Assembly (NCBI GenBank): GCA_903842455.1
Contig: CAIMLX010000155.1
Span: 1-46,159 of the forward strand
Source: an uncultured Hyphomicrobiales bacterium
GTDB taxonomy: Bacteria > Pseudomonadota > Alphaproteobacteria > Rhizobiales > Devosiaceae
Length of the DNA: 46,159 nt
Reading direction: 5' to 3'
Translations under genes and position numbers: made by a program
Notes under the pieces: model-generated
What the model was told of the DNA's origin: nothing
The model's database searches: none
Seen by the model: only the letters and a program-made list of their open reading frames with translations
In this document: positions 4,469 to 43,120 of the stretch, piece after piece
Layout: the number at the start of each line of letters is the position of its first letter
Position numbering within the stretch: position 1 is the stretch's first letter

Positions 4469-5545
4469 ATGAAGTGCCTAGACGAATTCACGATCTACCA
4501 GAATCCGGCGCCGCTGCTAGTGAGCCGGCAGGCGACGTTCCCAGGTCTAGTGCAACTGCCCAGCGGCGAGTTGGTGGCGGTGTTCACTATCGGACAGGCA
4601 TTCGACGCAGCGGATGCTCGTGCATATGTCAGCCGCAGCAGCGACGAGGGGCGGAGTTGGAGCGCGCCCATGCGACTGTCGCCCCATGAGCCGGAGCCTG
4701 AGGAGTCCCAATCCTTCAAGCCGCTGCTGTTGCGCGATGGCACGCTCATGGCTGCCGGTTATGTCTTCGTTCGGCCGACGCCCCTTACCCCGATCGTCGA
4801 TCCTGACACTTTCGAACTGCTGCGCCTCCGCAACAGGGTCAGCTTTTCGTCCGATGGCGGGCTCAACTGGAGCCAGCCACAGTTGATCGACGTCGGGGGG
4901 CAGCCGCTGGAGCTTTCCGGCCCATGCATCGAACTCAGTTCCGGTCGCCTGATCGGCGCGACGGCCCCCTTCCATCTGCACAAGGATGGCCACGCGGGCT
5001 GGATCATCGCGAGCGACGACAAGGGCCGCAGCTGGCGCAAGCTGTCGGAGTTCTACAGTTCGCCGACGGGCAGCGTGGCAAGCTGGGAGTGCCGGCTCTG
5101 CGAGATGTCGCCGGGCCGCGTGGCGGTCATCATGTGGGCCTATGACAACGCGACGTCGGCCAACCTCGACAACAAGCTGGCTCTCTCGGACGATAGTGGC
5201 GAGAGCTTCCGGGTCATCGAAACGGGCGTCCACGGTCAGGCATCGAACGTTATGCCGCTCGGTGGCAACAAGCTGCTGACCATCCATGCTCATCGCGAGG
5301 CACCGATCGGGCTGATCGTCCGTCGCGTTGATGTGAGCGGCGACCACTTCACCGTGGAAGAAGAACTGAATCTGCTCGGGAACGCCGATATGGCCAGCGA
5401 AACCGCCGACATCCGCAAGCAGTTCGCCAGCCTCAAATTTGGCCAGCCATCGCTTCTCAAACTTGCCAGCGGCGACATCCTCGCGGCTTGCTGGAGTTTC
5501 GAGAATAGCCAATACGTCATCAAGGGCTATCGGCTCGCGCTGTAG
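4469..5545 (+). CDS. Asp-box (BNR) sialidase-fold propeller protein A
   Basis: A 358-residue protein with four Asp boxes at 57-64 (SSDEGRSW), 127-134 (SSDGGLNW), 182-189 (SDDKGRSW) and 240-247 (SDDSGESF), the hallmark of six-bladed sialidase-type propellers. There is no signal peptide or membrane segment, so it should be cytoplasmic. An early Arg (R20 in LLVSRQ) and FKP near 83 resemble active-site strands of exo-sialidases, but a classical FRIP motif is not seen, so hydrolytic sialidase activity is unproven; a lyase or isomerase role is possible. It is strictly collinear with propeller C (20873-21952): I count 38 identities in the first 60 residues and the Asp boxes fall at the same residue numbers. 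It lies between the AraC regulator and the MFS/HEAT gene. Confidence 0.85.
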   Translation: MKCLDEFTIYQNPAPLLVSRQATFPGLVQLPSGELVAVFTIGQAFDAADARAYVSRSSDEGRSWSAPMRLSPHEPEPEESQSFKPLLLRDGTLMAAGYVFVRPTPLTPIVDPDTFELLRLRNRVSFSSDGGLNWSQPQLIDVGGQPLELSGPCIELSSGRLIGATAPFHLHKDGHAGWIIASDDKGRSWRKLSEFYSSPTGSVASWECRLCEMSPGRVAVIMWAYDNATSANLDNKLALSDDSGESFRVIETGVHGQASNVMPLGGNKLLTIHAHREAPIGLIVRRVDVSGDHFTVEEELNLLGNADMASETADIRKQFASLKFGQPSLLKLASGDILAACWSFENSQYVIKGYRLAL

Positions 5546-7856: not shown

Positions 7857-8972
7857 CTAAATCGCGATCCGCGCCCACCGAACATCGAGCGCCTTGGGCT
7901 CGCCGGCATAGTATAGCACCAGCACGTCGCCATCAGACAGCACTTCGGCGAAGGGAAGGCCAAAACTCCACAAATCCATGCTGGCGAGCATATCACCCGT
8001 ATCGGCGCTTGCAGCTTCGCCTTGCCCGTGCTTGTAGATCACGACCTCGCTCGCCGGATCGAATGGTGCATCCAGCGAAGGTGCGTAGCGGGCGCGGATC
8101 GACTTGCTGCCGAAGCGATCAACCCAGGCGAGAACGATGCTGCCATCCGGGCGGATGGCCGGACGTGCTGCCTGATCGGAAATGCCAATCGCCTCGGGAG
8201 TGGTCCAACTGTCGCCGCCGTCGCTGCTGAGGCGCTTGTGGATATCGAGATAGGTGCTGGTCTGGCTGTCATATGTCCAGGCGAACGACCCGATGCGGCC
8301 ATCCGGGCCCACCGCGGCGCGCAGATCCCAATTGAAGATGCGCCCCGAGGAGTCTTCCGCCACGGTCACCGGAAGCGACCAGGTCTGTCCCCTATCCGAG
8401 GAGTGGAAGTAGACGGCACGCTGCTGCCATTTCGAGCGGTCGAGATAGGGCTTGTTGGTCTCGATGCTGAGCGCCAGCCGCCCATCGGCAAGCTTGAGGA
8501 TCGGGCAGGTAAGGCTCGCCGGACCGATGTCGGTCGGCATCGGAACGTGCCGCCACTCCGTCCAGGTCTGGCCATGATCGTGCGAGTCCGCGAGGAGGAT
8601 CTCCATCGGCAGACAGCCTTCGGTCTCGGCGTTAAAGAGCGGCTGGCCCGGATAGGTGGTGCGGTCGATCCACATCGAAGCGGCGATCAAATGGCCGGGT
8701 GCGAGCTCGGTCAGATAACAGAGCTTGAGCGAGCCACTCTTGCCGCCAACATCGGGAGACACGAATGGAAAATCCGGTCCGCTCCATGTCGCACCACCGT
8801 CGACCGAGCTATAGAACTCAATTCTGTCGGCCGCCGAGTCCTTGTCCGGGCCGGAGCGAAGCGTCGCGATGAGCGCCCCGTCGGCCAGCGCGAGCGCCAT
8901 CGGAAACGTGAGATTGGCTCGATTGGTGCCAAGCTCGGCACGGCTCAATACGCCCGACGCAGTAATCCGCAT
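7857..8972 (-). CDS. Asp-box (BNR) sialidase-fold propeller protein B
   Basis: A 371-residue signal-less propeller with Asp boxes at 55-63 (SSVDGGATW), 129-137 (DSHDHGQTW), 191-198 (SSDRGQTW) and 249-256 (SSDGGDSW). It is only distantly related to propellers A and C: box spacing differs and the N-terminal region (RANLTFPMALALADG) is its own. It is the last gene of the minus-strand operon 12130-7857, nine bases after the Gfo/Idh gene. Lack of an export signal again suggests action on imported substrate. Exo-sialidase is the default database call for such proteins; a glycan lyase, or an intramolecular trans-sialidase working with the neighbouring oxidoreductase, is equally possible. The gene converges on the MFS/HEAT gene with 14 bases between stops. 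Confidence 0.8.
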   Translation of the reverse strand: MRITASGVLSRAELGTNRANLTFPMALALADGALIATLRSGPDKDSAADRIEFYSSVDGGATWSGPDFPFVSPDVGGKSGSLKLCYLTELAPGHLIAASMWIDRTTYPGQPLFNAETEGCLPMEILLADSHDHGQTWTEWRHVPMPTDIGPASLTCPILKLADGRLALSIETNKPYLDRSKWQQRAVYFHSSDRGQTWSLPVTVAEDSSGRIFNWDLRAAVGPDGRIGSFAWTYDSQTSTYLDIHKRLSSDGGDSWTTPEAIGISDQAARPAIRPDGSIVLAWVDRFGSKSIRARYAPSLDAPFDPASEVVIYKHGQGEAASADTGDMLASMDLWSFGLPFAEVLSDGDVLVLYYAGEPKALDVRWARIAI

Positions 8973-8981
8973 GTTCGTCTA

Positions 8982-10004
8982 TTATCCCAGTTTGACCGGC
9001 TGACCGGAGTTCGACGACTCCCAGGCCGCCATCACGAGCGCCACCGCCGCACGACCATCCTCGCCCGATACCGTGTCGGGGCGACCATCAAGCACATCGT
9101 CGACGAATGCCTGCGTTTGGCGGAAGAACGCCTCCAGCCGGACCGGTTCGAGCGGCCGGTTGATGTAATCGATCGGTGGCTGTTCCCAGTAGGTTTCCCA
9201 CTGGCCATTCCGGCCCAGTTGCACCTTCCCATAGGCGTCGACGTCGATCGTGCCGGTCTCGCCAACCACCACATAGCGGTGCTGCGAGTTCGGCAGGCTC
9301 GGCGTCGGCATCTGGTATGTCATCCAGTGCTGCGCCATGATGCCACCGGAAAAGCGGATCTGGCTCATCGCGTTGAGACCCGGATAGGGCACGTCGCCGA
9401 ACGTCGTGACCGTAGCAAAAATACTCTCGGCTTCCGCTCCAAGGACGAAGCGCATCAAGTCGAAGAAATGCACGCCGGTATCGAGGAAGGCGCCGCCCTG
9501 CTCGGTCTCGCCGGCCCACGGGCTTTGATCCACGACATAGTCCGTAAACAACGACCGACCGTCGAACATACGAACGGCCCCGATCGCGCCATCGGCCACC
9601 AGCTTTCTCGTCCGCGAGACCGCACCGCGAAAGCGCTGCGTCTGGATGACCTCGAACCGCACGCCGGCGTGCTTGCAGGCTTCGATCATTTTTGTGCAGT
9701 CGGCGACACTCGTTGCCATCGGCTTTTCGACCAGCACATGCTTGCCTGCCGACGCTGCCGCCAGCACCTGCGCGCAATGGTCGACGTGGGGCGTTGCGAT
9801 CAGGACCGCGTCGACATCGCCGCGCGCCAGCATAGCCTCGTAGCTCGTCTCGACGGCAACGCCGTAGTCGGCGGCAAGTGCCGGCGCTCTGCGGCCTCCG
9901 GCAATGGCAATCAGCCGGGAGCGATGCACATGCTTGGTGATGCATTCCGCATGGGTCCGTCCCATGTAGCCCGAGCCCAGAATGGCAAGACGCAGTTCGG
10001 CCAT
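8982..10004 (-). CDS. Gfo/Idh/MocA family NAD(P)-dependent oxidoreductase
   Basis: A 340-residue cytosolic dehydrogenase. The Rossmann fold shows GSGYMG at 11-16 and the family Lys in VEKP (92-95); the substrate domain follows (GGAFLDTGVHFFDLMRFVLG near 170-190, with the D and H that often bind sugar). The family oxidises or reduces sugars, inositols and, in known gut systems, 2,7-anhydro-sialic acid. GAGGGGA precedes the ATG by five bases and overlaps the end of the upstream gene (10-base gap). It sits between the two small coupled paralogs and propeller B in an operon headed by the NagA-like deacetylase, so it likely acts on the propeller's product. Exact substrate unknown. Confidence 0.88.
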   Translation of the reverse strand: MAELRLAILGSGYMGRTHAECITKHVHRSRLIAIAGGRRAPALAADYGVAVETSYEAMLARGDVDAVLIATPHVDHCAQVLAAASAGKHVLVEKPMATSVADCTKMIEACKHAGVRFEVIQTQRFRGAVSRTRKLVADGAIGAVRMFDGRSLFTDYVVDQSPWAGETEQGGAFLDTGVHFFDLMRFVLGAEAESIFATVTTFGDVPYPGLNAMSQIRFSGGIMAQHWMTYQMPTPSLPNSQHRYVVVGETGTIDVDAYGKVQLGRNGQWETYWEQPPIDYINRPLEPVRLEAFFRQTQAFVDDVLDGRPDTVSGEDGRAAVALVMAAWESSNSGQPVKLG

Positions 10005-19976: not shown

Positions 19977-20043
19977 TGAGGCACCACCCTAGTCTCCATC
20001 GACCCGCCAACAATGGCCCGGGAGGCCACAGCTTCAAAACAGC

Positions 20044-20064
20044 ATGTTGTTATGTTAACGGCAT
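20044..20064. promoter_or_regulatory. Putative operator 3 (divergent promoter)
   Basis: A 21-base imperfect palindrome of the form ATGT-N2-TTA-N3-TAA-N2-(A/G)CAT. Its core GTTA-TGT-TAAC (20049-20059) is a perfect inverted repeat. Closely matching elements occur at 22019-22039 and 23038-23058, each followed about 45 bases later by TCGGGGG and a start codon. It lies between the six-gene minus operon and the dehydrogenase at 20094. Confidence 0.6.
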
Positions 20065-20093
20065 ATCTTGTGATGTCAATTCGGGGGATGCGC

Positions 20094-20876
20094 ATGACCG
20101 ATAAGAAGAAGGTTCTGGTCACCGGTGCAAGCGGCATGATCGGGCAATTGGTCATCAAGCGCCTGGGGGACCGGTATGACTTCAGCGGGTTAAGTCGACG
20201 TCCGGTTGAGGGTATCGCGCACATCGCTGCCGACATCACCGATCTCGATGCCGTCCGCCGCGCCTGCGCGGGGATGGACATGGTGCTGCATCTCGCCGCC
20301 GAAACGCAGGACTATGACGACTGGGACAAAGTGATGGCTGTTACCATGGGCGGCACGCTCAACGTCTATCGCGCCGCGCAGGAAGCAGGTGTCGAGCGCG
20401 TGGTCTTCGGCAGCGCCGGCAGCACGATGATCGGCTATGAATGGTACGAGGGCTCGCCCTATGCCGCGCTCACCGCCAACACGATCCAGCGATTGCCGCC
20501 GGGCGAGCGCATGCTGATGCACACCGACCCGCCGCGACCGGCGGATTTCTACAGCGTCGGCAAGCTGTTCGGCGAACATACCGGTCGCCTGTTCTCGGAC
20601 CGCCACGGCATCTCCGTGCTGGTCATCCGCATCGGCGCCGTGCTGCCGGACGACCGGCCAAGCATCGTGCGGGAACTGCCCGGCTATTTGTCGCACCGGG
20701 ACCTGGTCAGCATCATCGACATGTGCCTGTCGGCACCGCCGGAGCTGAAGTTCGATATCTTCCACGCCATCTCGGAGAATAGTCGCAGGTGGCGCGACAC
20801 CGACCACGCCAAGAAGGTGCTCGGCTGGCAGCCCGTTGATTCATCGGATGTATTCGATCCCGCAACACTCGCCTAA
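20094..20876 (+). CDS. Extended SDR, uronate-dehydrogenase-like, paralog 1
   Basis: A 260-residue NAD-dependent epimerase/dehydratase-family protein. GASGMIG (11-17) is the Rossmann loop; LHLAAET (65-71), a Ser/Thr-rich strand end (GSAGST, 107-111) and Y153-x3-K157 (YSVGK) form the active site. RPADFYSVGKLFGE and the late SENSRRWRDTDHAKKVLGW strongly recall bacterial uronate dehydrogenases, which oxidise uronic acids to aldaric lactones. The ATG at 20094 has GGGGG six bases upstream; an in-frame ATG at 20088 is less likely. Its stop overlaps that of propeller C by four bases. It is collinear, without gaps over the first 170 residues, with the dehydrogenase at 22072. Confidence 0.85.
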   Translation: MTDKKKVLVTGASGMIGQLVIKRLGDRYDFSGLSRRPVEGIAHIAADITDLDAVRRACAGMDMVLHLAAETQDYDDWDKVMAVTMGGTLNVYRAAQEAGVERVVFGSAGSTMIGYEWYEGSPYAALTANTIQRLPPGERMLMHTDPPRPADFYSVGKLFGEHTGRLFSDRHGISVLVIRIGAVLPDDRPSIVRELPGYLSHRDLVSIIDMCLSAPPELKFDIFHAISENSRRWRDTDHAKKVLGWQPVDSSDVFDPATLA

Positions 20877-21952
20877 AAGGTGAGGTGGAAGCCCTTGATG
20901 ATGTATCGGTGGTTCTCAAAGCTCCAGCAATAGGCGAGGATTTTGCCGCTCTGGAGCCTGAGGACCGTGGGCTGGCCGAACTTCAGGCTGCCGAATTGCT
21001 GCTTCATGTCGATGGTGGTGCTGCCCATCGCGGGGTCGACGAAGAGGTCGAGCTCGTCCTCGATCCGGAACATATCCTCGGAAAGATCGACCAAACGCAC
21101 CACCAAACGGGCGTCATTTTCGCGTTGTGCGTGGATTGTCAGCAGGCGCTCGCCGTCCAGATGAACAAGGCTCGAGGACTGGCCGAGAACACCGGTGTCG
21201 ATCGCCGGCCCGAAGCTCTTGCCGCCGTCGCTGGAGAGCGCGATGTGGTTGTTCAGATTGCGCTCGGTTGTGTGGTCATAGGCCCACCAGAGCACGGCCA
21301 CCCTGCCCTCGCCCCAACTGGCGACACGGCACTCCCAGGCGTGAATGTCGCTGGCCGGCGCGCGGAAGAACTCGCTGAGCTTGAACCAGGACTGCCCGCC
21401 ATCGTCACTGGCAACGATCCATCCGGCATGGCCGTCCCGCCGCAGATGGAAGGGCGACGTCGCCGTGATGATCCGGCCTGCCGGAAGCTGCGTCGCGGGC
21501 CCCGAGAGCTCGAGCGGCGCGCCCTCGATGTCGATCCTCCGTGGCACGGTCCAGCTGTGTCCCAGATCGGTCGAGAGGCTGATTTTGGTCCGCAGTTCCG
21601 GCAAGGCCTGCGTTGCCAGATCGACGATCGGCTGCAGCGGGTCGGGGCGGACGAACACATAGCCGGTCGCCAGCATGGTGCCGTCCTCAAGCAGCACCGG
21701 CTTGAAGCTCTCCTGCTCGGGCGGATCGAATTCTGTGCCGTGCAGCCTCACCGGAGCCGTCCAGGTCAGGCCCTCGTCGCGGCTGCGGATCACGTAGGAG
21801 CGCATGTCGGCGGCATCGAACGCCTGCCCGATCGAGAGCAGGCCGAGGAGTTCGCCATCCGGCAATTGCACAATTCCCGGGAACAGTCCCTGCCGGCTCA
21901 CCAGCAGCGGGTCGGCGTTCTCATAGATGGAGAAAGCGGCGGTCCGCTGCAT
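20873..21952 (-). CDS. Asp-box (BNR) sialidase-fold propeller protein C
   Basis: A 359-residue signal-less propeller with Asp boxes at 57-64 (SRDEGLTW), 127-134 (STDLGHSW), 182-189 (SDDGGQSW) and 240-247 (SSDGGKSF). It is a clear paralog of propeller A with the same residue numbering of all boxes and the shared segments LLVSRQ, IGQAFDAAD and SGP. GGAGTGG lies six bases before the ATG. It is divergent from the second uronate-dehydrogenase-like gene across operator 4 and converges on the first. Together the three genes form a small unit that looks assembled by duplication. Function as for propeller A: cytosolic sialidase-fold enzyme, reaction unproven. Confidence 0.85.
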   Translation of the reverse strand: MQRTAAFSIYENADPLLVSRQGLFPGIVQLPDGELLGLLSIGQAFDAADMRSYVIRSRDEGLTWTAPVRLHGTEFDPPEQESFKPVLLEDGTMLATGYVFVRPDPLQPIVDLATQALPELRTKISLSTDLGHSWTVPRRIDIEGAPLELSGPATQLPAGRIITATSPFHLRRDGHAGWIVASDDGGQSWFKLSEFFRAPASDIHAWECRVASWGEGRVAVLWWAYDHTTERNLNNHIALSSDGGKSFGPAIDTGVLGQSSSLVHLDGERLLTIHAQRENDARLVVRLVDLSEDMFRIEDELDLFVDPAMGSTTIDMKQQFGSLKFGQPTVLRLQSGKILAYCWSFENHRYIIKGFHLTF

Positions 21953-22001: not shown

Positions 22002-22039
22002 TTGACACCCTCTGAGACATGTTATTATATTAATGACAT
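22002..22039. promoter_or_regulatory. Putative promoter with operator 4
   Basis: TTGACA at 22002-22007 and TATATT at 22026-22031 (18-base spacer) form the clearest sigma-70-like promoter in the window, directed at the dehydrogenase at 22072. The palindrome ATGT-N2-TTA-N3-TAA-N2-ACAT at 22019-22039 covers the -10 box; its core ATTA-TAT-TAAT is perfect. Binding there would block polymerase, so repression is the natural reading. Confidence 0.65.
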
Positions 22040-22071
22040 ATCTGTGCAGTCAACGTATCGGGGGAACGTGC

Positions 22072-22857
22072 ATGGCCGGCAAACCGAAAGTCCTGATCAC
22101 CGGCGCAAGCGGCCTGATCGGCGGACTTGTGATCCGCGACCTTTCGGACAGATACGAATTCAGCGGCCTCAGCCGCCGCGTCGTTCCCGGCATCGCCCAC
22201 ACCCAGGCGGAAATCACCGACCCCGTTGCCATCCGCAAGGCCGCGGCCGGCATGGACATGCTGCTGCACCTTGCCGCCGAAACCCAGGACTATGACGACT
22301 GGGACAAGGTGATGACCAATACCATCGGCGGCACGCTCAACATGTTCCGCGCTGCCCAGGAAGCTGGCGTCAAGCGCGTCGTGTTCATGAGCACCGGCAG
22401 CACAATGTGCGGCTATGAATTGTATGAGGGCTCGCCCTATGGCGCCCTCGCCGCCAACGAGCTGACCGGTTTGCCGCCGGGTGAGAAGATGCTGAGCTAT
22501 CTCGATCCGCCGCGCCCCGACAGTTTCTACGGTGTGGGCAAGCTGTTCGGCGAGAATACCGGGCGTCTTTTTTCCGACCGATACGGCATGTCGGTGATCT
22601 GTATCCGCCTCGGCGCGGTGCTTGCCAGCGACAAACCCGAACTGATCCGCCACTATCCCGGCTATCTGGCGCAGGCCGACGCTGTGCAGATGGTGGACAA
22701 GTGCCTCTCGGCACCCGATGCGATCCGCTTCGACATCTTCGATGCGATTTCGGAGAACAAGCGGCGCTGGCGCGACACGTCTCACGCCAAGGATGTCATC
22801 GGTTGGCGGCCCACCGGCTCGGCCGACAATTACGACATCACGCTGCTCGAAGCCTGA
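22072..22857 (+). CDS. Extended SDR, uronate-dehydrogenase-like, paralog 2
   Basis: A 261-residue paralog of the gene at 20094, collinear from GASGLIG (11-17) through LHLAAETQDYDDWDKVM to Y153-x3-K157 (YGVGKLFGE) and SENKRRWRDTSHAKDVIGW. Ends differ most, so the two may have diverged in substrate. The ATG at 22072 follows TCGGGGG, the same leader sequence as in paralog 1. It is likely a sugar-acid dehydrogenase (uronate-dehydrogenase-like) rather than a sugar-nucleotide epimerase, judged by the short length and the YxVGKxFGE segment. It is controlled by the promoter/operator 4 region and transcribed away from propeller C. Confidence 0.85.
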   Translation: MAGKPKVLITGASGLIGGLVIRDLSDRYEFSGLSRRVVPGIAHTQAEITDPVAIRKAAAGMDMLLHLAAETQDYDDWDKVMTNTIGGTLNMFRAAQEAGVKRVVFMSTGSTMCGYELYEGSPYGALAANELTGLPPGEKMLSYLDPPRPDSFYGVGKLFGENTGRLFSDRYGMSVICIRLGAVLASDKPELIRHYPGYLAQADAVQMVDKCLSAPDAIRFDIFDAISENKRRWRDTSHAKDVIGWRPTGSADNYDITLLEA

Positions 22858-23881: not shown

Positions 23882-25504
23882 ATGAGGATTCTAAAGGCCG
23901 CCGCGGTGGCCCTACTTCTGCAGACCGGCATTAGTACTTTTGCGCAAGCCCAGGCTCTGAATGCCAACCCACTCTCGGACGTGCGCGTCCGGCAGGCCAT
24001 CGCCTACGCGATCGACAGGAACCTGATCGTTGAATCCGTGTTCGGCGGCTACGCAGTCCCTGCCGACGGCCTCCTCCCGAACGGCCCGTTCAAGAGCCCC
24101 AATCTCGACGCCTATCCCTACGACCCGGAGAAGGCCAAGGCCCTGCTCGCTGAGGCCGGCTGGGATTCGAGCCGGACGCTCGAGATGGTCTACTACTATG
24201 ACGACCAGATCACTGCCGACCTTATGGCCGTGCTGCAGGCGCAGCTTGCCGACGTCGGCATCAACATGACCTACGGCCTGATCGTGGGCGACGTGGCCAA
24301 GACTCTCAACTCCATCCCCGAGGATCCCAAGGGCAAGTCGGTCGTGACCTGGGACATGGCCTACGGCGCCCGCGCCGCCATGGTGATGCAGGAATATTTC
24401 AACGACTACGCCACCGGCAAAGCTTCCGCCGACGGCTTCCCCGGCTCGCCTGAGCTCGACGCGCTGATCGCCGAGTCCAACACGGCGACCGATCCCGAGG
24501 CCGCCAAGGCGACGTTGATGAAGATCGACGAGTTCATCAACGCCAACGCCATCACCCTGCCGCTCTACTACCAGCAGCTGCAGTCGGTTGAGAGCACCCG
24601 CCTCGACCGTCATGGCGAGCCCTATGGCAACGACCAGTTCAACTACGACTGGAACGTCCACAACTGGACCGTCACGCCCGATGCGGACGGCAAGGCGATC
24701 CTCTATACCAACGGCGCGCCGCTCGACTATTTCGAGCAGCCGTGGGTCAATCTGGGTCTGTGGGCCGGCAACAAGTTCATCTGGGCGCACATGCTCGGCT
24801 CCAAGCCCTTCCTCGATGGGATCACCGGCGGCGATTTGGCCGAAACCTACGAGATGAGCGAAGACGGCAAGACGCTGACCTTCACCATGCGTGAGGGCAC
24901 CAAGTGGCACGACGGCGAAGCGATCACTGTGGACGACGTCACCTTCAGCCTCGAATTCGCGCTGAAGACACCGAACCTGCAGGGCGTGCTCGCCAGCGTG
25001 TTCAACTCGATCGAAGGCGCGGCTGAATATGTGGCCGGCACCGCCGAGCACGTGTCCGGCATTTCTTCGGACGGCAACACGGTCACCATCAAGTTCACCA
25101 AGCCGAACGCCAATACGCTGATCTCCTTCACCCAGTGGGGTCCGTTCCCCAAGAAGTACTTCGAAGGCGTGGATCCGACGCTCGTCCAGCAGGCCGAGTT
25201 CTGGCAGAAGCCGATTGGCTCGGGCCCGTTCAAAGTTGAAGAAGCCAAGTTCGGCGACTTCTCGTCCTTCGTGCCCTTCGACGACTATTACGAAGGCAAG
25301 CCCAAGATCGACCAGATCATTGCCTGGTCGAGCTCGGACGGCGACGTGAACATGGTAAAGAATGCCTCTGCCAACCGTATCGACTTCGCCGTGACCAAGG
25401 TCGTCAGCGACATCGAAGCGATCAAGGCACTGGACTTCATGCGGCTGACGCCGTTGGATATCCCCTACACGCGCATGGTCTGGTTCAACCAGTACGACAA
25501 GTAA
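23882..25504 (+). CDS. ABC importer substrate-binding protein (SBP_bac_5 family), apparently circularly permuted
   Basis: A 540-residue periplasmic binding protein with a signal peptide (1 to about 25, ending AQAQA). Segment order is unusual. Residues 28-265 match what is normally the C-terminal part of DppA/OppA-type proteins: NPLSDVRVRQAIAYAIDR (29-46), YDPEKAKALLAEAGW (80-94) and LPLYYQQ. Residues 266-540 match the normal N-terminal part: ETYEMSEDGKTLTFTMREG (321-339), KWHDGEAITVDDV, IGSGPFKV (445-452), then YEGKPKIDQI. The protein stops at MVWFNQYDK, exactly where the NPLSDVRVRQA segment normally follows. It is a single uninterrupted frame. New termini fall near a domain crossover, so a stable fold is plausible. 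It is followed by a hairpin and the permease genes. Ligand probably an oligosaccharide, sugar acid or peptide. Confidence 0.88.
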   Translation: MRILKAAAVALLLQTGISTFAQAQALNANPLSDVRVRQAIAYAIDRNLIVESVFGGYAVPADGLLPNGPFKSPNLDAYPYDPEKAKALLAEAGWDSSRTLEMVYYYDDQITADLMAVLQAQLADVGINMTYGLIVGDVAKTLNSIPEDPKGKSVVTWDMAYGARAAMVMQEYFNDYATGKASADGFPGSPELDALIAESNTATDPEAAKATLMKIDEFINANAITLPLYYQQLQSVESTRLDRHGEPYGNDQFNYDWNVHNWTVTPDADGKAILYTNGAPLDYFEQPWVNLGLWAGNKFIWAHMLGSKPFLDGITGGDLAETYEMSEDGKTLTFTMREGTKWHDGEAITVDDVTFSLEFALKTPNLQGVLASVFNSIEGAAEYVAGTAEHVSGISSDGNTVTIKFTKPNANTLISFTQWGPFPKKYFEGVDPTLVQQAEFWQKPIGSGPFKVEEAKFGDFSSFVPFDDYYEGKPKIDQIIAWSSSDGDVNMVKNASANRIDFAVTKVVSDIEAIKALDFMRLTPLDIPYTRMVWFNQYDK

Positions 25505-25582: not shown

Positions 25583-26542
25583 ATGCTGACTTACATCATC
25601 CGCAGGGTACTGATTATCGTCCCGATGGCCATCGGCATCAGCTTCCTCATCTACCTTGCTCTCGATCTGTCTCCCGGTGACGCGGTTACCCGCATGCTCA
25701 ACCCTGTGCAAACGGTCGACCCCGAACGCATCGAAGAGCTGCGCCGTGCCCTCGGCCTCGATGCCCCGCTCCTCGTTCGCTACTGGATCTGGTTCAGCGG
25801 CGTGCTGCAGGGCAATTTCGGCCGCACCCTGACCGGTGGCGTACCCATCTCCCGCATTCTCATGGAGCGCCTCCCGGCGACCCTGGAACTGTCGACCATC
25901 GCGCTGGTCCTTTCGAGCATCTTCGGCGCGATCCTGGGCACCATCAGTGCGCTGCGCCGCGGCACCACCACCGACAATGTGCTGACCGTTGCGGGCATGA
26001 TCGGCGTGTCGATCCCGGAGTTCTTCTTCGGTCTCGTCGCCATCGTGATCTTCGCGCTCAATCTGCAGTGGCTGCCGGTCGGCGGACGGCTCCTCCCCAG
26101 CTATGACAGCTATTGGGACCACATCCCCAATCTGATCATGCCCTCGCTCGTCCTCTCCATTATGATGACCGCAGGTGTGATGCGCTATGCGCGCGCCGCC
26201 ATGCTGGACGCGCTCAGCCGCGAATTCATCAAGACTGCCCGCTCCAAGGGCTTGCCGGAATGGCGGGTGAACCTCTTGCACGGCTTCCGCGTGGCGCTGA
26301 CCCCCGTCGTCGTCCTGATCGGCTTCCGTCTGCCGATCCTTATCGGCGGCTCGGTCATCGTCGAGCAGGTGTTCCAATGGCCGGGTCTGGGCAATCTGTT
26401 CGTTCTGTCGGTCCGCAACAAGGATCTCCCCACGGTGATGACGATCGCCCTCCTCTCGGTGGTGCTGGTCCTCGTGGTCAGCCTCGTCATCGACATTCTC
26501 ACCGCGATCATCGATCCGCGGGTCCGGCTGGGTGGGGACTGA
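25583..26542 (+). CDS. ABC importer permease, DppB/OppB type
   Basis: A 319-residue inner-membrane subunit with about six transmembrane helices: N-terminal TM (IIRRVLIIVPMAIGISFLIY), a periplasmic loop containing the family segment LGLDAPLLVRYWIWFSGVLQGNFG, then a five-helix core. The EAA-type loop contacting the ATPases is at about 212-236 (SREFIKTARSKGLPEWRV). Standard family length. It pairs with the DppC-type subunit five bases downstream. The importer is of the peptide/nickel/oligosaccharide type, which also includes known sialic acid importers (SatABCD in Haemophilus ducreyi). Confidence 0.92.
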   Translation: MLTYIIRRVLIIVPMAIGISFLIYLALDLSPGDAVTRMLNPVQTVDPERIEELRRALGLDAPLLVRYWIWFSGVLQGNFGRTLTGGVPISRILMERLPATLELSTIALVLSSIFGAILGTISALRRGTTTDNVLTVAGMIGVSIPEFFFGLVAIVIFALNLQWLPVGGRLLPSYDSYWDHIPNLIMPSLVLSIMMTAGVMRYARAAMLDALSREFIKTARSKGLPEWRVNLLHGFRVALTPVVVLIGFRLPILIGGSVIVEQVFQWPGLGNLFVLSVRNKDLPTVMTIALLSVVLVLVVSLVIDILTAIIDPRVRLGGD

Positions 26543-26546
26543 CCCC

Positions 26547-27482
26547 ATGGCCCTCAGCGATATCGTCAGCCGCCGCACCCGCCTCGATCGCCAGTTCGAC
26601 CAGCTTCGCAGGCTCGAGGAAGCCGGCAAGCTGAAGCCGGCCAGCGGCAGCCGCGTAGTCCGCAAATTCCTCAACAACCGCCTCGCCGTGATCGGGCTGG
26701 TGGTGTTCACGCTCATCCTCCTCGCCTCGATCTTCGCGCCGCTGCTGACGCCGTGGGATCCGACCAAGATCAACCTGCGCGCCATCAACCAGTCGCCCTC
26801 GTGGGAGCACTGGTTCGGCACCGACAAGACAGGGCGCGACGTGTTCGCCCGGGTGCTCTATGGTGGTCGCATCTCGATCCTGGTGGGCCTCGGTAGCGCC
26901 CTGATCTCGGCGCTGATCGGCGTCATCATCGGCTGCTATGCGGGTTATGTCGGCGGCTGGCTCGACGCTATCGTTATGCGCATTTCGGAAGCCATCATGG
27001 CCTTCCCCGAAATCATCCTGGTGCTGGTGCTGGTGACGATCCTGGGCCAGTCGCTGTTCAACATCATGGCGATCTTCATCGTTGGCGGCTGGTGCGGCAT
27101 CTATCGGCTGGTGCGGGCGCAGATGCTGTCGCTGCGCGAGGAAGAGTATGTGCAGTCGCTGCGCAGTTTCGGCCTCAACCGGGCGCTGATCAGCTTCAAG
27201 CACATGCTGCCCAATGCGCTCGGGCCGGTGATGGTCAACATCACGCTGTCCACCGCCGCGTTTATCCTGCAGGAGGCCGGCCTTAGCTTTCTCGGCCTCG
27301 GCGTGCCGCTGTCGATGCCGACCTGGGGCAACATCCTCAATGTTGCGCAGGACCTCACGGTGCTGCGCAACAGCTGGTACCTATGGCTGCCGGTGGGCAT
27401 CTTCATTTCGCTGTTCGTGCTCAGCGTGAACTTCATCGGCGACGGGTTGCGTGACGCCACCGACCCAACAGCGCAGGGCTGA
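26547..27482 (+). CDS. ABC importer permease, DppC/OppC type
   Basis: A 311-residue inner-membrane subunit. It has the cytosolic N-terminal tail and first helix (NNRLAVIGLVVFTLILLASIF), the family segment HWFGTDKTGRDVFARVLYGGRIS, and the EAA loop REEEYVQSLRSFGLNRALI. ATG 26547 is preferred (GGGGA upstream, four bases after the DppB-type stop); a GTG at 26532 would overlap. The tail is long and Arg-rich (SRRTRLDRQFDQLRRLEEAGKLK), which is longer than in DppC but not exceptional. Forms the translocation pore with the previous gene product. Confidence 0.92.
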   Translation: MALSDIVSRRTRLDRQFDQLRRLEEAGKLKPASGSRVVRKFLNNRLAVIGLVVFTLILLASIFAPLLTPWDPTKINLRAINQSPSWEHWFGTDKTGRDVFARVLYGGRISILVGLGSALISALIGVIIGCYAGYVGGWLDAIVMRISEAIMAFPEIILVLVLVTILGQSLFNIMAIFIVGGWCGIYRLVRAQMLSLREEEYVQSLRSFGLNRALISFKHMLPNALGPVMVNITLSTAAFILQEAGLSFLGLGVPLSMPTWGNILNVAQDLTVLRNSWYLWLPVGIFISLFVLSVNFIGDGLRDATDPTAQG

Positions 27483-27485
27483 GCC

Positions 27486-28493
27486 ATGTCCGAGATCGCC
27501 ATCAGCGTACGCAACCTCAAGACCTTCTTTTACACCAACCAGCGGTGCAACAAGGCGGTCAACGGCGTGTCGTTCGACATCCACAAGGGCAAGACGCTGT
27601 GCATTGTGGGCGAGAGCGGCTGCGGCAAGTCGGTGACCGCGGCGGCGATCATGCAGCTCCTGCCCCGCCTGTCGCGAATCGAGGATGGCTCGATCACCTA
27701 TCACAGCGACCAGGGCGATATTCACATCGAGCGGCTGCCGCGCAACGGCCCCCAGATGCGCGCCATTCGCGGCGCCGAGATCGCCATGATCTTCCAGGAT
27801 CCGATGACGGCACTGAACCCGGTGTTCACCGTCGGCTTCCAGATCATGGAGAATTTGCTCTACCACACGAAGCTGCGCGGCCGGCAGCTCAAGGACAAGG
27901 CGATCGACCTTTTGCGCTCTATGGGCATTCCGGCGCCGGAACGCCGCGCCGAACAGTTCCCGCACCAGTTCTCGGGCGGCATGCGGCAGCGGGCGATGAT
28001 CGCCATGGCGATGGCCTGCAACCCGAAAGTGCTGATCGCCGACGAGCCGACGACGGCGCTCGACGTCACCATCCAGGCGCAGATCTTCGAGCTGATGACG
28101 ACGCTCAAGCGCGAGCACGGCACGGCGATCATGCTGATCACCCACGATATGGGCGTGGTCGCCGAACTCGCCGACGATGTGGCCGTGATGTACATGGGCA
28201 ATATCGTCGAGGCGGGCACGGTCGAGGACATCATGCGCCGGCCGACGCATCCGTATACGCGGGCGCTGCTCAACTCGATCCCGGTGCTGGGGCGCGGCAA
28301 GAACCAGCGCGTGCTGCCGATCCCCGGCTCGACGCCCGATCCGCTGAACCGGCCCGTCGGCTGCCAGTTCGCCGATCGCTGCACCTACCGGATGGAGGCG
28401 TGCAATGTGATGCCCGCCGAAACCCAGATGACCCCCACCCACCGCGTCATGTGCTGGCGCCATGAGGAGCTCGCCAATGCTCCGCGACAGTAA
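27486..28493 (+). CDS. ABC importer ATPase, DppD/OppD type
   Basis: A 335-residue ATP-binding subunit: Walker [10 protein letters not shown]-loop [11 protein letters not shown], signature SGGMRQR, Walker [13 protein letters not shown], switch His in LITHDMGVV, and the C-terminal oligopeptide-transporter domain with clustered Cys ([14 protein letters not shown]) that in relatives binds an iron-sulfur cluster. All key residues are intact. Three bases separate it from the permease, and its 3' end overlaps the next ATPase by 17 bases, so the pair is translated together. Confidence 0.93.
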
Positions 28494-29502
28494 CGACGTC
28501 ATCCTCAGCCTACGCGGTGTGAAGTCGCACTTCCCGGTCAAGGCCGGCGTGTTCAAGCGCACCGTCGGACAGGTGAAAGCGGTCGACGGTGTCGACATCG
28601 ACATTTATCGCGGCGAAGTGCTCGGCCTGGTGGGCGAAAGCGGCTGCGGCAAGACCACGCTGGGCAAGACGATTCTGCAGCTGGTGCGGGCGACAGCCGG
28701 CGAGATCGTCTACAGTTCCAAGACCGAGAGCGCCGACCTCAACAAGCTCTCCAACCGCGAGCTCGACCCGTATCGCCGCCGGCTGCAGATCGTGTTCCAG
28801 GACCCCCATTCCTCGCTCAATCCGGCCTTCACCATCTTCGGCTCGCTCGAGGACGCGCTGATCAAGTTCGGCGTCAAGACCAGGAATGCGCGGCGCAAGA
28901 TCGTCGGCGATTTGCTCGAATCGGTGAACATGCGGGCCGAGTACATGGACCGCTATCCGCACGAGTTTTCGGGCGGGCAGCGCCAGCGCATCGGCATTGC
29001 GCGCGCGCTGTCGGTCGATCCCGAGCTCGTGGTCTGCGACGAGGCGGTGAGCGCGCTCGACGTGTCGATCCGCGCCCAGGTGCTGGAGCTGCTGATGCAG
29101 CTCAAGCGCGACCGCAACCTCACCTACATCTTCATCACCCACGATCTCAGCGTCACCGAATATATCTGCGACCGTATCGCGGTGATGTATCTGGGCCGGA
29201 TCGTCGAGCTCTGCTCGTCCGAGGATCTCTACGCCCGCCGGCTGCATCCCTATACGCAGGCGCTGCTGTCGGCCATCCCGGTGGCCGATCTCGATCGGCG
29301 GAGCCAGCGCGTGGTGCTCGAGGGCGATGTGCCGAGCCCGGTGAATCCGCCCTCGGGCTGTCCGTTCCACCCGCGCTGCCGGTTCAAGCAGGACATCTGC
29401 AGCCAGGTCGTGCCGCAACTGAAGCGCTATTCCATCGACGGCCGCGGCGACCATTTCGCGGCCTGCCATCTCATCGACGCACCCGAGGCGACAGTCGCCT
29501 GA
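28477..29502 (+). CDS. ABC importer ATPase, DppF/OppF type
   Basis: A 341-residue ATP-binding subunit with Walker A GESGCGKT, Q-loop VFQDPHSSLNP, signature SGGQRQR, Walker B VVCDEAVSALD (Ala in place of the usual Pro, common in OppF) and ITHDLSV. The C-terminal Cys motif (CPFHPRCRFKQDIC) is present. Start ATG 28477 follows GAGGAG by about seven bases; the frame begins earlier at 28462 but that codon lacks a site. It completes the importer and is followed after 30 bases by the NanA-like lyase, consistent with import coupled to cleavage. Confidence 0.93.
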   Translation: MLRDSNDVILSLRGVKSHFPVKAGVFKRTVGQVKAVDGVDIDIYRGEVLGLVGESGCGKTTLGKTILQLVRATAGEIVYSSKTESADLNKLSNRELDPYRRRLQIVFQDPHSSLNPAFTIFGSLEDALIKFGVKTRNARRKIVGDLLESVNMRAEYMDRYPHEFSGGQRQRIGIARALSVDPELVVCDEAVSALDVSIRAQVLELLMQLKRDRNLTYIFITHDLSVTEYICDRIAVMYLGRIVELCSSEDLYARRLHPYTQALLSAIPVADLDRRSQRVVLEGDVPSPVNPPSGCPFHPRCRFKQDICSQVVPQLKRYSIDGRGDHFAACHLIDAPEATVA

Positions 29503-29532: not shown

Positions 29533-30459
29533 ATGCCGGTCTTCGATCTCAAGAACGTCCCGGGTGTCATCCCCGCGATGGTGACGCCGTTCGACGAAAA
29601 CGAGAAGCTCGACGAAAAGCGCCTGCGCGCCGTCGTCAACTTCCTCATCGAGCACAAGCTCGAGGGGCTCTACATCACTGGTTCGACCGGCGAGAGCTTC
29701 CTGATGTCGCCCGAAGAGCGCAAGCGTGTCGTCGAGATCACGGTTGAGGAAACCCGCGGCCGCATTCCAATCATCGCCCATATCGGCGCCATCGGAACGC
29801 ATTCCTCGATCGACCTCGCCAAGCACGCCGCGGCGGCCGGCGTCGATGCGATCTCCTCGGTGCCCCCCTTCTACTGGGGATTTTCCGCCGACCAGATCGT
29901 CAGCTACTACACCGACCTCACCGCCTCCACGTCGCTGCCGATGTTCGCCTACAATGTGCCCATGGCAGCGCTCGGCTTTGACGTGATCAAGCGGTTGGCG
30001 CAGATCCCAGGCTTGGTCGGGGTCAAGTACACCGCCTCCACGCATCACGAGATCATCCGCATCAAGCAGGAAATCCGGTCCGATTTCATCGTCTATTCCG
30101 GCTCGGACGAGATGGCGATGTCGGGCCTCGGCTTCGGGGCCGAAGGGATCATCGGCTCGTTCTACAATCTGATGCCCGAAATCTTCATCCCGCTGCGCGA
30201 TGCCGTGGCGGCGGGTGACCATGTCGAGGCTAAGCGGCTGCAGGAAATCGGCAATGCGGTGATCTTCCACTCGCTGCCACGCGGCGGCGTCACCTGCATC
30301 AAGCGCGGTATGGCATGGCTTGGCTGCGATGCGGGCTATACGCGAAAGCCCCTCGGCTCTTATGTCGATGCGGCCGCAGAGGCAAAGCTCAAGGACGACT
30401 TCCGCACCCTGCGCGACGAGCGCGGCCTCAAGGGTGTCGCGTTCCTCGACGCGCTCTGA
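29533..30459 (+). CDS. DapA/NanA family aldolase, N-acetylneuraminate lyase-like
   Basis: A 308-residue class I aldolase of the dihydrodipicolinate synthase superfamily. ITGSTGESFLMS (48-59) matches the GSTGE(A/S)F motif of N-acetylneuraminate lyases; Tyr140 (FAYNVP) and the Schiff-base Lys165 (LVGVKYTAS) are the catalytic pair, with nearly NanA numbering. NanA splits sialic acid into pyruvate and N-acetylmannosamine. The match is good but the superfamily is functionally broad, so a keto-deoxy sugar-acid aldolase is possible. Directly downstream of the importer and upstream of an unknown protein and an FMN oxidase. Of the two DapA-type genes here this is the nearer to NanA. Confidence 0.85.
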   Translation: MPVFDLKNVPGVIPAMVTPFDENEKLDEKRLRAVVNFLIEHKLEGLYITGSTGESFLMSPEERKRVVEITVEETRGRIPIIAHIGAIGTHSSIDLAKHAAAAGVDAISSVPPFYWGFSADQIVSYYTDLTASTSLPMFAYNVPMAALGFDVIKRLAQIPGLVGVKYTASTHHEIIRIKQEIRSDFIVYSGSDEMAMSGLGFGAEGIIGSFYNLMPEIFIPLRDAVAAGDHVEAKRLQEIGNAVIFHSLPRGGVTCIKRGMAWLGCDAGYTRKPLGSYVDAAAEAKLKDDFRTLRDERGLKGVAFLDAL

Positions 30460-30470
30460 GCGGGGCTGCG

Positions 30471-31379
30471 ATGGCACAGGGGCTCCGCAACGTTCTGACG
30501 CTGAACTCGGATCGATCGGTCCGCGACGGCAGCACAACCGACCTTGTCGACGCGATCCGGCGCGGCGCGGATCTCCGCATCGGCACCGCGTTCCGTCACA
30601 ATGAGCATATCGACACCTCCTCGCCCAGCAATGAGCTGATCGAGGAGGTAGCAGAGTTCCGCCAGACGCTACTGCTCGATGACCGCTGGGCGGCCGGCAT
30701 CATGACGCTGCGAATGCCGGTGGAATTACCCGAGGGGTTCGGGCCGCGTCCATCGATGTCGTTCTTCCTCTACAATCAGGATGGCACGCAGGCGATCGCC
30801 CGCCCCTATCTCGACGGCGAGGCGCCGACGGGAGCGCCGGGGTCCTATCCGGTCGAACCCGACCCGGCGATGCCGAAATACCATCAGTTCGACAATTTCG
30901 ACGTCGGCACGAACGGGCCCTCGCACAATTTCGTCTACGACTTCGACAGCTTCCGCTTCCTCGTTAACGATCGCTGGCGCGAAGTGCTGGCGCACGACTA
31001 CGAAGGGCGGCCGAAATCGGGGTCGATCGACGCGCTGACCGAAGCGTTCCTGCGCGGTTCGCCGGTGAAGGTGGCGATCGACAAATTCTGTATCGGCCTC
31101 GTGCCGCCGGACGAAACGGCGCCCGATCACGAGGCCTTCATCCACGCCGGCTCCTGCTACTACTACACCGACCGCAAGCTGTTCATCACCGGCACGCACC
31201 CTGCGGTGCGCGTGAAGCCGGCCATTCCGATGCGCTATGGCACGGGCGGCTGGGATTTCTGCTGGCTGGTGGCGCGGACCGACGGCCAGGTCGAACGCTG
31301 GCGCTGCGATCCGCAAACGCTGAAATTCGACCGCAGCACACATCGCTACGACATGCGCTGGTTCGTTCTGAAGGATTGA
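30471..31379 (+). CDS. Conserved-looking protein of unknown function
   Basis: A 302-residue protein I do not recognise. No signal peptide, membrane helix or nucleotide-binding loop is visible. It looks beta-rich, with several aromatic-rich segments: PSMSFFLYNQDGTQAIARPYL, HNFVYDFDSFRFLVNDRW, SCYYYTDRKLFITGTHP and GTGGWDFCWLVARTDG. Two halves may be similar beta-sandwich or calycin-like units. It is placed 11 bases after the NanA-like gene and two bases before the FMN oxidase, so it is surely co-expressed and probably enzymatic or substrate-binding in the same pathway. Codon and base use match the neighbours, so it belongs to the operon. Confidence 0.75.
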   Translation: MAQGLRNVLTLNSDRSVRDGSTTDLVDAIRRGADLRIGTAFRHNEHIDTSSPSNELIEEVAEFRQTLLLDDRWAAGIMTLRMPVELPEGFGPRPSMSFFLYNQDGTQAIARPYLDGEAPTGAPGSYPVEPDPAMPKYHQFDNFDVGTNGPSHNFVYDFDSFRFLVNDRWREVLAHDYEGRPKSGSIDALTEAFLRGSPVKVAIDKFCIGLVPPDETAPDHEAFIHAGSCYYYTDRKLFITGTHPAVRVKPAIPMRYGTGGWDFCWLVARTDGQVERWRCDPQTLKFDRSTHRYDMRWFVLKD

Positions 31380-41974: not shown

Positions 41975-43120
41975 ATGAGAGTCTCCATTTTCGACGATGT
42001 GGCAGTTTCACCGGAGCGCCATCTGGGTGAGCGATGGGCGTTCGCCTTCCCGACCTCCTGCCGGCTGCGCGACGGGACAATCCTGTCGGTCTATCGTCGC
42101 GGCAAGGAGAAGCACTCACACGACGGCGTGTTCATGGTGCAGCGCTCGGATGATGGCGGGCGGAGCTGGAGTGAGCCGCAGACGATCTGGGACGGCTTGA
42201 AAGCGGCTGTGCCGCAGTCGGTTCATGCTGGCACGGTGGTCGAGGCCAGCGACGGCAGCGTCCTCGCCATGTTCACGGCCGTTGAGATTACCGATGCGGC
42301 GGAAGCCTTTATCTTCAGCAGCACGGGCCGCCATCTCGAGCAGAGATTCTACGTCGTGCGAAGCGCAGATGGCGGCAGGACATGGTCGGCGCCGACGCTC
42401 GCCCACTTGCCGGGCACGCCGCCGCTGCGCTACATCAACAGCCGCCCCCTGCCCCTGCCCCTGCCCGATGGCCAGGTGCTGGTGCCGGCCGAGGTCACCA
42501 CGGACGCCGGACTGCAGGCCGTCATGACCGGGCATTATGACGTCTCGTCCGGTGTTTTCTCCCCGTTCCAGTTCGTTGCGCGTGACACCAGCGGCCGGCT
42601 GAGCTTCGGGGACCCCAAATTCGCGGCGCTACCCGACAGCACGATCCTGATGTGGCTGTGGGCCTTCGTGAACGCAACGGAAGAGACGGTTGCGGCACAT
42701 CTTTGCGCGTCGACGGACAATGGCCGCAGCTGGAGTGCACCGCGGCCGACCCCGATTGTCGCCCAGGCCTCTGCACTGCTCACGATCGACGACGCAAGGG
42801 TGATCGTCGCCGGCAATGTGCGAACACCACCCGAGGGCATCCGACCCTGGCAATCGCCCGATGCAGGCCAGCATTGGGACGAGGCCTCGCCGATCCAGAT
42901 GTGGGACGCGCGGAGCCACCGGATGCTCGGCGCGCCGATAGGGGAACGGGCGCAGGCAGCGCGCGATCCGAGCGACGGTAAGCTCTGGGAGTCGCTGCCC
43001 GGCTTCACCTTCGGCTCGCCGGATCTGGTTCCCGCGGAAGAGGGCGTGAGCCTTTTGACCTATTACGTCATGAATGACGGGTTCGCGGAGGTGCGCGCAT
43101 GCCGCTTCGTTGTGGACTGA
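41975..43120 (+). CDS. Asp-box (BNR) sialidase-fold propeller protein E
   Basis: A 381-residue propeller without signal peptide. Asp boxes: 58-65 (SDDGGRSW), 130-137 (SADGGRTW), 246-253 (STDNGRSW) and 294-301 (SPDAGQHW). The N-terminal half (RWAFAFPTSCRLRDGTILSVYRRG) resembles sialidase-family exo-enzymes more than the A/C pair does; similarity to the other three is low. AGGGGGG precedes the ATG. It sits between two broken genes but is itself intact. Reaction unproven, as for the other propellers. Confidence 0.82.
   Translation: MRVSIFDDVAVSPERHLGERWAFAFPTSCRLRDGTILSVYRRGKEKHSHDGVFMVQRSDDGGRSWSEPQTIWDGLKAAVPQSVHAGTVVEASDGSVLAMFTAVEITDAAEAFIFSSTGRHLEQRFYVVRSADGGRTWSAPTLAHLPGTPPLRYINSRPLPLPLPDGQVLVPAEVTTDAGLQAVMTGHYDVSSGVFSPFQFVARDTSGRLSFGDPKFAALPDSTILMWLWAFVNATEETVAAHLCASTDNGRSWSAPRPTPIVAQASALLTIDDARVIVAGNVRTPPEGIRPWQSPDAGQHWDEASPIQMWDARSHRMLGAPIGERAQAARDPSDGKLWESLPGFTFGSPDLVPAEEGVSLLTYYVMNDGFAEVRACRFVVD

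Follow-up and report, generated by a model that had tools for sequence, protein, structure and literature searches.

Introduction

Substrate-binding proteins (SBPs) of family 5, which belong to structural cluster C, are a very common type of receptor for ATP-binding cassette (ABC) importers, and the order of segments along their chains is usually taken as fixed. In cluster B, natural circular permutation is known from TpMglB-2 (Tp0684) of Treponema pallidum, a crystallised ABC binding protein classed as 'Type Ic / Cluster Bc' that is reported to bind D-glucose and to undergo conformational change, and whose topology is said to have relatives in treponemes and Gram-positive bacteria (PMC4990184). 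Among the matches listed from the open-licence literature, TpMglB-2 is the only natural permuted ABC binding protein, and none is from family 5. Here we describe a gene, located in a 46,159-nucleotide stretch of DNA from an uncultured Hyphomicrobiales bacterium of the Devosiaceae (contig CAIMLX010000155.1 of assembly GCA_903842455.1; the whole stretch is hereafter the window), that encodes a DppA/OppA-type (SBP_bac_5, PF00496) binding protein in which the C-terminal half is placed ahead of the N-terminal half, with a signal peptide of its own. We consider it very probable that the product is functional and secreted, a natural circular permutant of cluster C that serves as ligand receptor for the Opp4/Dpp-like ABC importer whose genes adjoin its own.

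Results

Segment order in the protein and its rotation

The 540-residue protein is encoded in a single clean frame with an AGGAGA-type ribosome-binding site upstream of its ATG, and its start, MRILKAAAVALLLQTGISTFAQAQ, is signal-peptide-like as judged by eye. The DVRVRQA and YDPEKAKALLAEAG segments lie at residues 33-94, with SEDGKT and IGSGPF at 326-452. A preliminary description of the DNA had given the same motif positions, had held that both halves occupy one clean frame, and had proposed a circular permutation on that basis; all three points are borne out.

The native protein scores 223.1 bits against PF00496 (gathering score 32.4), in two out-of-order stretches; profile positions 4-208 fall at residues 317-537 and positions 202-321 lie N-terminal of them, contrary to the canonical N-to-C domain order. 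When the protein is rotated at residue 268 and its first 28 residues are removed (512 aa, without the signal peptide), the match becomes one stretch of 244.3 bits. An end-to-end alignment to PF00496 without permutation, which had been named as evidence against the proposal, was not seen, the alignment being continuous only after rotation. The phmmer comparison with PDB sequences behaves in the same way: residues 318-495 of the native protein align with DppA 1dpp 49-230 and residues 9-127 with 282-405 of the 8z1z DppA chain, whereas residues 51-347 of the rotated query align in one piece with 1dpp 49-348. In a plasmid collection, a single place spans 80% or more of the native query (540 aa) in 24 of 2461 matching records, compared with 1232 of 3598 for the rotated query (512 aa), the shorter length of which helps slightly. 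PF00496 was the only Pfam domain found in the protein at E ≤ 0.001; a cluster B sugar-binding domain was not found.

The genome that carries the window has 22 PF00496 matches, of which two are the pieces of the permuted gene, with the profile order reversed (positions 202-321 ahead of 4-209). None of the other 20 is reversed: 15 cover most of the profile in a single, in-order stretch, and five are incomplete (profile positions 3-260, 103-363 and 2-130, and a neighbouring pair, 2-170 and 166-349, in different frames). Separately, we observed in this genome a linear SBP_bac_5 gene with its two halves in different frames (G000:C176:8775-10015), as well as two adjacent, related linear SBP_bac_5 genes (G000:C161:6642-7748 and 8320-9411); tandem duplication in the family occurs here.

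Predicted structure

An AlphaFold2 model (predicted local distance difference test score, pLDDT, 82.5; predicted template modelling score 0.82) was obtained with a 44-row alignment that includes unaltered fragments of 17 of 23 linear homologs and in which many tails past residue ~230 are still misplaced. Each half of the model finds its counterpart in the opposite half of known DppA/OppA structures; Foldseek and VIA-align matched one half per alignment, and the relative placement of the two halves is to be regarded as predicted. The new termini are in lobe 2, some 12-15 residues beyond the hinge from lobe 1 to lobe 2, in agreement with the earlier suggestion that they lie close to a domain crossover.

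After the signal peptide the chain would, on the basis of this model, enter lobe 2 at its first helix and go back over the return crossover to the tail of lobe 1 that is C-terminal in DppA/OppA; a short linker (shorter by 5 residues in the G179 group of relatives) would then lead into lobe 1 and the hinge, and the strand that formerly opened lobe 2 would come last. The two hinge crossovers would remain covalent, the sole cut being in the strand-to-helix loop of lobe 2. Because the crossovers would be intact, the protein should shut around its ligand as ordinary Venus-flytrap proteins do, and should also dock with DppBC. By comparison with homologs, it would be exported by its own signal peptide, fold into two lobes, bind ligand between them, close and deliver the ligand to DppBC. 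The protein contains no Cys, and is therefore not a lipoprotein.

Conservation of the permuted order

Of 33 related loci identified by scanning genome contigs, ten (L021-L030; 44-100% identical) are permuted, in one frame and with a signal-peptide-like start; among these, L021 and the window are almost identical, and L028 is the record of a named isolate, Thalassovita autumnalis. The remaining 23 are linear: the alignment of each to the rotated query is unbroken and spans the old junction. Both junctions of the permuted protein are common to related proteins at 44-50% identity. With a profile of the ten permuted proteins, matches were found in 9 of 19 genomes of the genus and 26 of 136 of the family, counts that include the window's own genome and overlap with the ten; 24 of the 26 family matches are in one frame, and six single-contig genomes of the family carry the permuted gene (G004, G441, G457, G472, G500 and G501). 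In another genome, G409, the gene is cut by contig ends. In the order of G179 the gene is present in 24 of 162 genomes, all of one genus and all drafts of 1.0-1.6 Mb. Homologs with the same order, which the preliminary description had suggested seeking, are therefore found in both close and more distant relatives, and among homologs with closely related DppBCDF neighbours we saw none in linear order; linear homologs for the same locus, together with read evidence of a misassembly, had been named as what would count against permutation. None of 72 stretches of viral contigs that fit a pattern encodes a relative.

A query in permuted order aligned as a single best piece at all 54 loci. By a motif test of order, 35 of the 54 pass; the other 19, all from the G179 group, fail the pattern. 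In the one member aligned, L091, the cause is that the motifs read FHDG and GSGA, with the order unchanged. A rougher motif test on 39 linear proteins was uninformative: 25 were scored as linear, 13 were without a motif and one (L042) was scored reversed via a chance early match. Cys occurs within the first 32 residues at one of the 54 loci (L065).

Ancestry and selection

A tree made by a quick method combined 35 linear rows, gathered partly by motif, with 21 permuted rows that had been rotated for alignment. All the permuted proteins fall on one side of a branch whose Shimodaira-Hasegawa-like approximate likelihood ratio is 100; the linear rows have long branches, and the nearest is L031, from a Trueperaceae metagenome-assembled genome (support 93). 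Comparison with three relatives gives ratios of nonsynonymous to synonymous substitution rates (dN/dS) of 0.095, 0.152 and 0.225, with similar values in both halves; the permuted gene is under purifying selection. Most likely, the permutation arose once and was then inherited. Natural permutations are usually accounted for by tandem duplication, fusion and trimming. In the present case the simplest route would be that a linear gene was duplicated in tandem and fused in frame, with both outer halves trimmed and a signal peptide retained at the new start.

Several observations weigh against the proposal of a single-origin, functional permutant. An initial AlphaFold2 model, from a 10-row alignment, was poor (pLDDT 65). 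Beyond a few groups the permuted family is rare, being present in 2 of 385 genomes of a class-wide sample (the window's own and G179) and in 1 of 398 of a phylum-wide sample (the window's own). One member, L065, is in one frame and lacks a clear signal peptide, and in the single-contig genome G413 the permuted gene (L081) is spread over three frames, by either sequencing error or breakage of the gene. The best identity to linear proteins is ~28-33% over most of the length, and no linear protein reached E ≤ 1e-55 against the rotated profile in 289 genomes of the class, with at most 5 candidates scored per genome; the linear parent is therefore distant, and the duplication route is left without an intermediate. 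The half-trees also diverge: for residues 29-267 the nearest linear row is L031 (mean distance 2.67, compared with 3.40 for the next), and for residues 268-540 it is L032 (Paludifilum), followed by a Cytobacillus plasmid protein and then L031. As for the transporter, its closest linear counterpart was not found: among 240 genomes, relatives of the DppC-type permease at E ≤ 1e-80 are confined to the two in which the permuted gene is present.

The divergence of the half-trees bears on whether the two halves come from different linear binding proteins, the C-terminal half from one gene and the N-terminal half from its neighbour, as does the observation that the best plasmid matches (best 25 rows each) differ between halves. 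We regard such a chimeric origin as unlikely, given that all the linear relatives are only ~30% identical, that the 35 linear rows were partly motif-gathered and the single-half trees are weak, and that L031 is sister to the permuted proteins in the full-length tree. Similarly doubtful is the fuller form of this idea, i.e. that the proteins are the first naturally permuted class in SBP family 5 (a 'Cluster Cc') whose lobe 2 and lobe 1 descend from two parents via fusion through the middle of a diverged tandem pair; were it true, permutation would be a route to new ligand specificity.

That the gene is a decaying or non-functional relic of a rearrangement, as the three-frame gene of G413 and the unclear signal peptide of L065 might suggest, is very improbable in view of the low dN/dS values, of its retention beside DppBCDF-type genes across groups, and of its retention in the small draft genomes noted above. 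Wrong-order joining of the halves of a linear gene has a negligible chance of being the explanation: although the assembly is a draft of 280 contigs, the same order is present in other assemblies, including the six single-contig genomes and the T. autumnalis record, and both junctions are kept at 44-50% identity. The sharing of the rearrangement by relatives in several bacterial groups makes it look like an inherited, working design rather than a sequencing error.

Transporter genes and neighbourhood

The permuted gene is followed by genes for two permeases, two ATPases and a lyase (Table 1). In 16 of 19 stretches inspected all four DppBCDF-type genes, whole or partial, come after the permuted gene, in Devosiaceae, Paracoccaceae/Roseobacteraceae and G179; the other three stretches end early, within DppD (L082), DppB (L030) or the permuted gene itself (L083). 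The lyase follows the transporter genes in G179 and in those Devosiaceae stretches long enough to include it; L025-L029 have a more distant superfamily member upstream, on the opposite strand. A ligand of sugar-acid or sialic-acid-like type, perhaps amino-linked, is our tentative guess.

Table 1. Positions in the window of the permuted gene, its segments and the genes that follow it
Feature	Position	Strand	Basis
SBP_bac_5-type substrate-binding protein gene, circularly permuted (540 aa)	23882..25504	+	phmmer, PF00496, structure model
Signal peptide, residues ~1-24, ends AQAQ	23882..23953	+	judged by eye
Residues 29-267, counterpart of the DppA/OppA C-terminal half: most of lobe 2, return crossover, lobe 1 C-terminal tail	23966..24682	+	
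Linker, residues ~263-271 (TVTPDADGK), bridging ancestral C-terminus and ancestral N-terminus	24668..24694	+	
Residues 268-540, counterpart of the DppA/OppA N-terminal half: lobe 1, hinge, first lobe 2 strand; terminates at VWFNQYDK strand	24683..25501	+	
DppB-type permease	25583..26542	+	PF00528; best NCBIfam Opp4B, 273 bits (cut-off of 450 not reached)
DppC-type permease	26532..27482	+	Opp4C, 347 bits (just under cut-off of 350)
DppD/OppD-type ATPase	27486..28493	+	
DppF/OppF-type ATPase	28462..29502	+	
DHDPS/NanA-superfamily lyase, 3' of transporter genes	29533..30459	+	NCBIfam N-acetylneuraminate lyase, 251 bits (cut-off 281)

The window also encodes a Gfo/Idh oxidoreductase, an RraA-like protein, aminotransferases and an M81 metallopeptidase. 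An open reading frame of ~300 codons (30471-31379), between the lyase and a flavin mononucleotide dehydrogenase gene, has no Pfam match at E ≤ 1e-5. Three BNR-repeat (sialidase-like) proteins with no obvious signal peptide are encoded at 4469-5545, 20873-21952 and 41975-43120; epimerase-like genes on either side of the second (20013-20876 and 22033-22857) are similar by eye and may reflect a local duplication.

Discussion

The presence of a permutation within SBP family 5 is surprising and well supported. A conserved natural permutant in which the hinge crossovers appear intact provides a ready experiment on the role of chain order in folding, export, opening and closing, and docking, and its natural lobe 2 termini may be usable in biosensor design. 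Since profiles in linear order score permuted proteins piecewise, annotation can misjudge receptors of this type.

The protein resembles DppA, OppA and MppA (SBP_bac_5, PF00496, cluster C) in that homology is nearly full length, in the matching predicted fold of each half and in the type of importer genes that adjoin it; it differs in its rotated segments, in having termini at the strand-helix loop of lobe 2, and in that the nearest linear proteins found are 28-33% identical to it. The best NCBIfam matches of the receptor and the two permeases are to the Opp4-type importers, i.e. Opp4A (NF045467; 188.1 bits), Opp4B and Opp4C, but all are below the respective cut-offs, that of the receptor being in two stretches and far under the equivalog value of 650.

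The expectation in the preliminary description that an ABC binding protein naturally permuted and equipped with a signal peptide of its own would be new does not wholly hold, because TpMglB-2, from another structural cluster, has been published (PMC4990184), and the kind of event is already known from it. In common with TpMglB-2, the window protein is a natural permutation of the binding protein of an ABC importer, has kept an export signal and has relatives of the same topology (PMC4990184). TpMglB-2 is a lipidated cluster B protein, with a poorly conserved permuted segment and an extra, fourth crossover (PMC4990184), whereas the window protein belongs to SBP family 5, has no Cys and has two halves that are both alignable to linear relatives; from its model, it would retain both hinge crossovers and add none. 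Anchoring, the idea put forward for TpMglB-2, would not account for both cases, since lipidation is absent from the window protein. Together with TpMglB-2, the protein suggests that permutation has arisen independently in at least two clusters of binding proteins.
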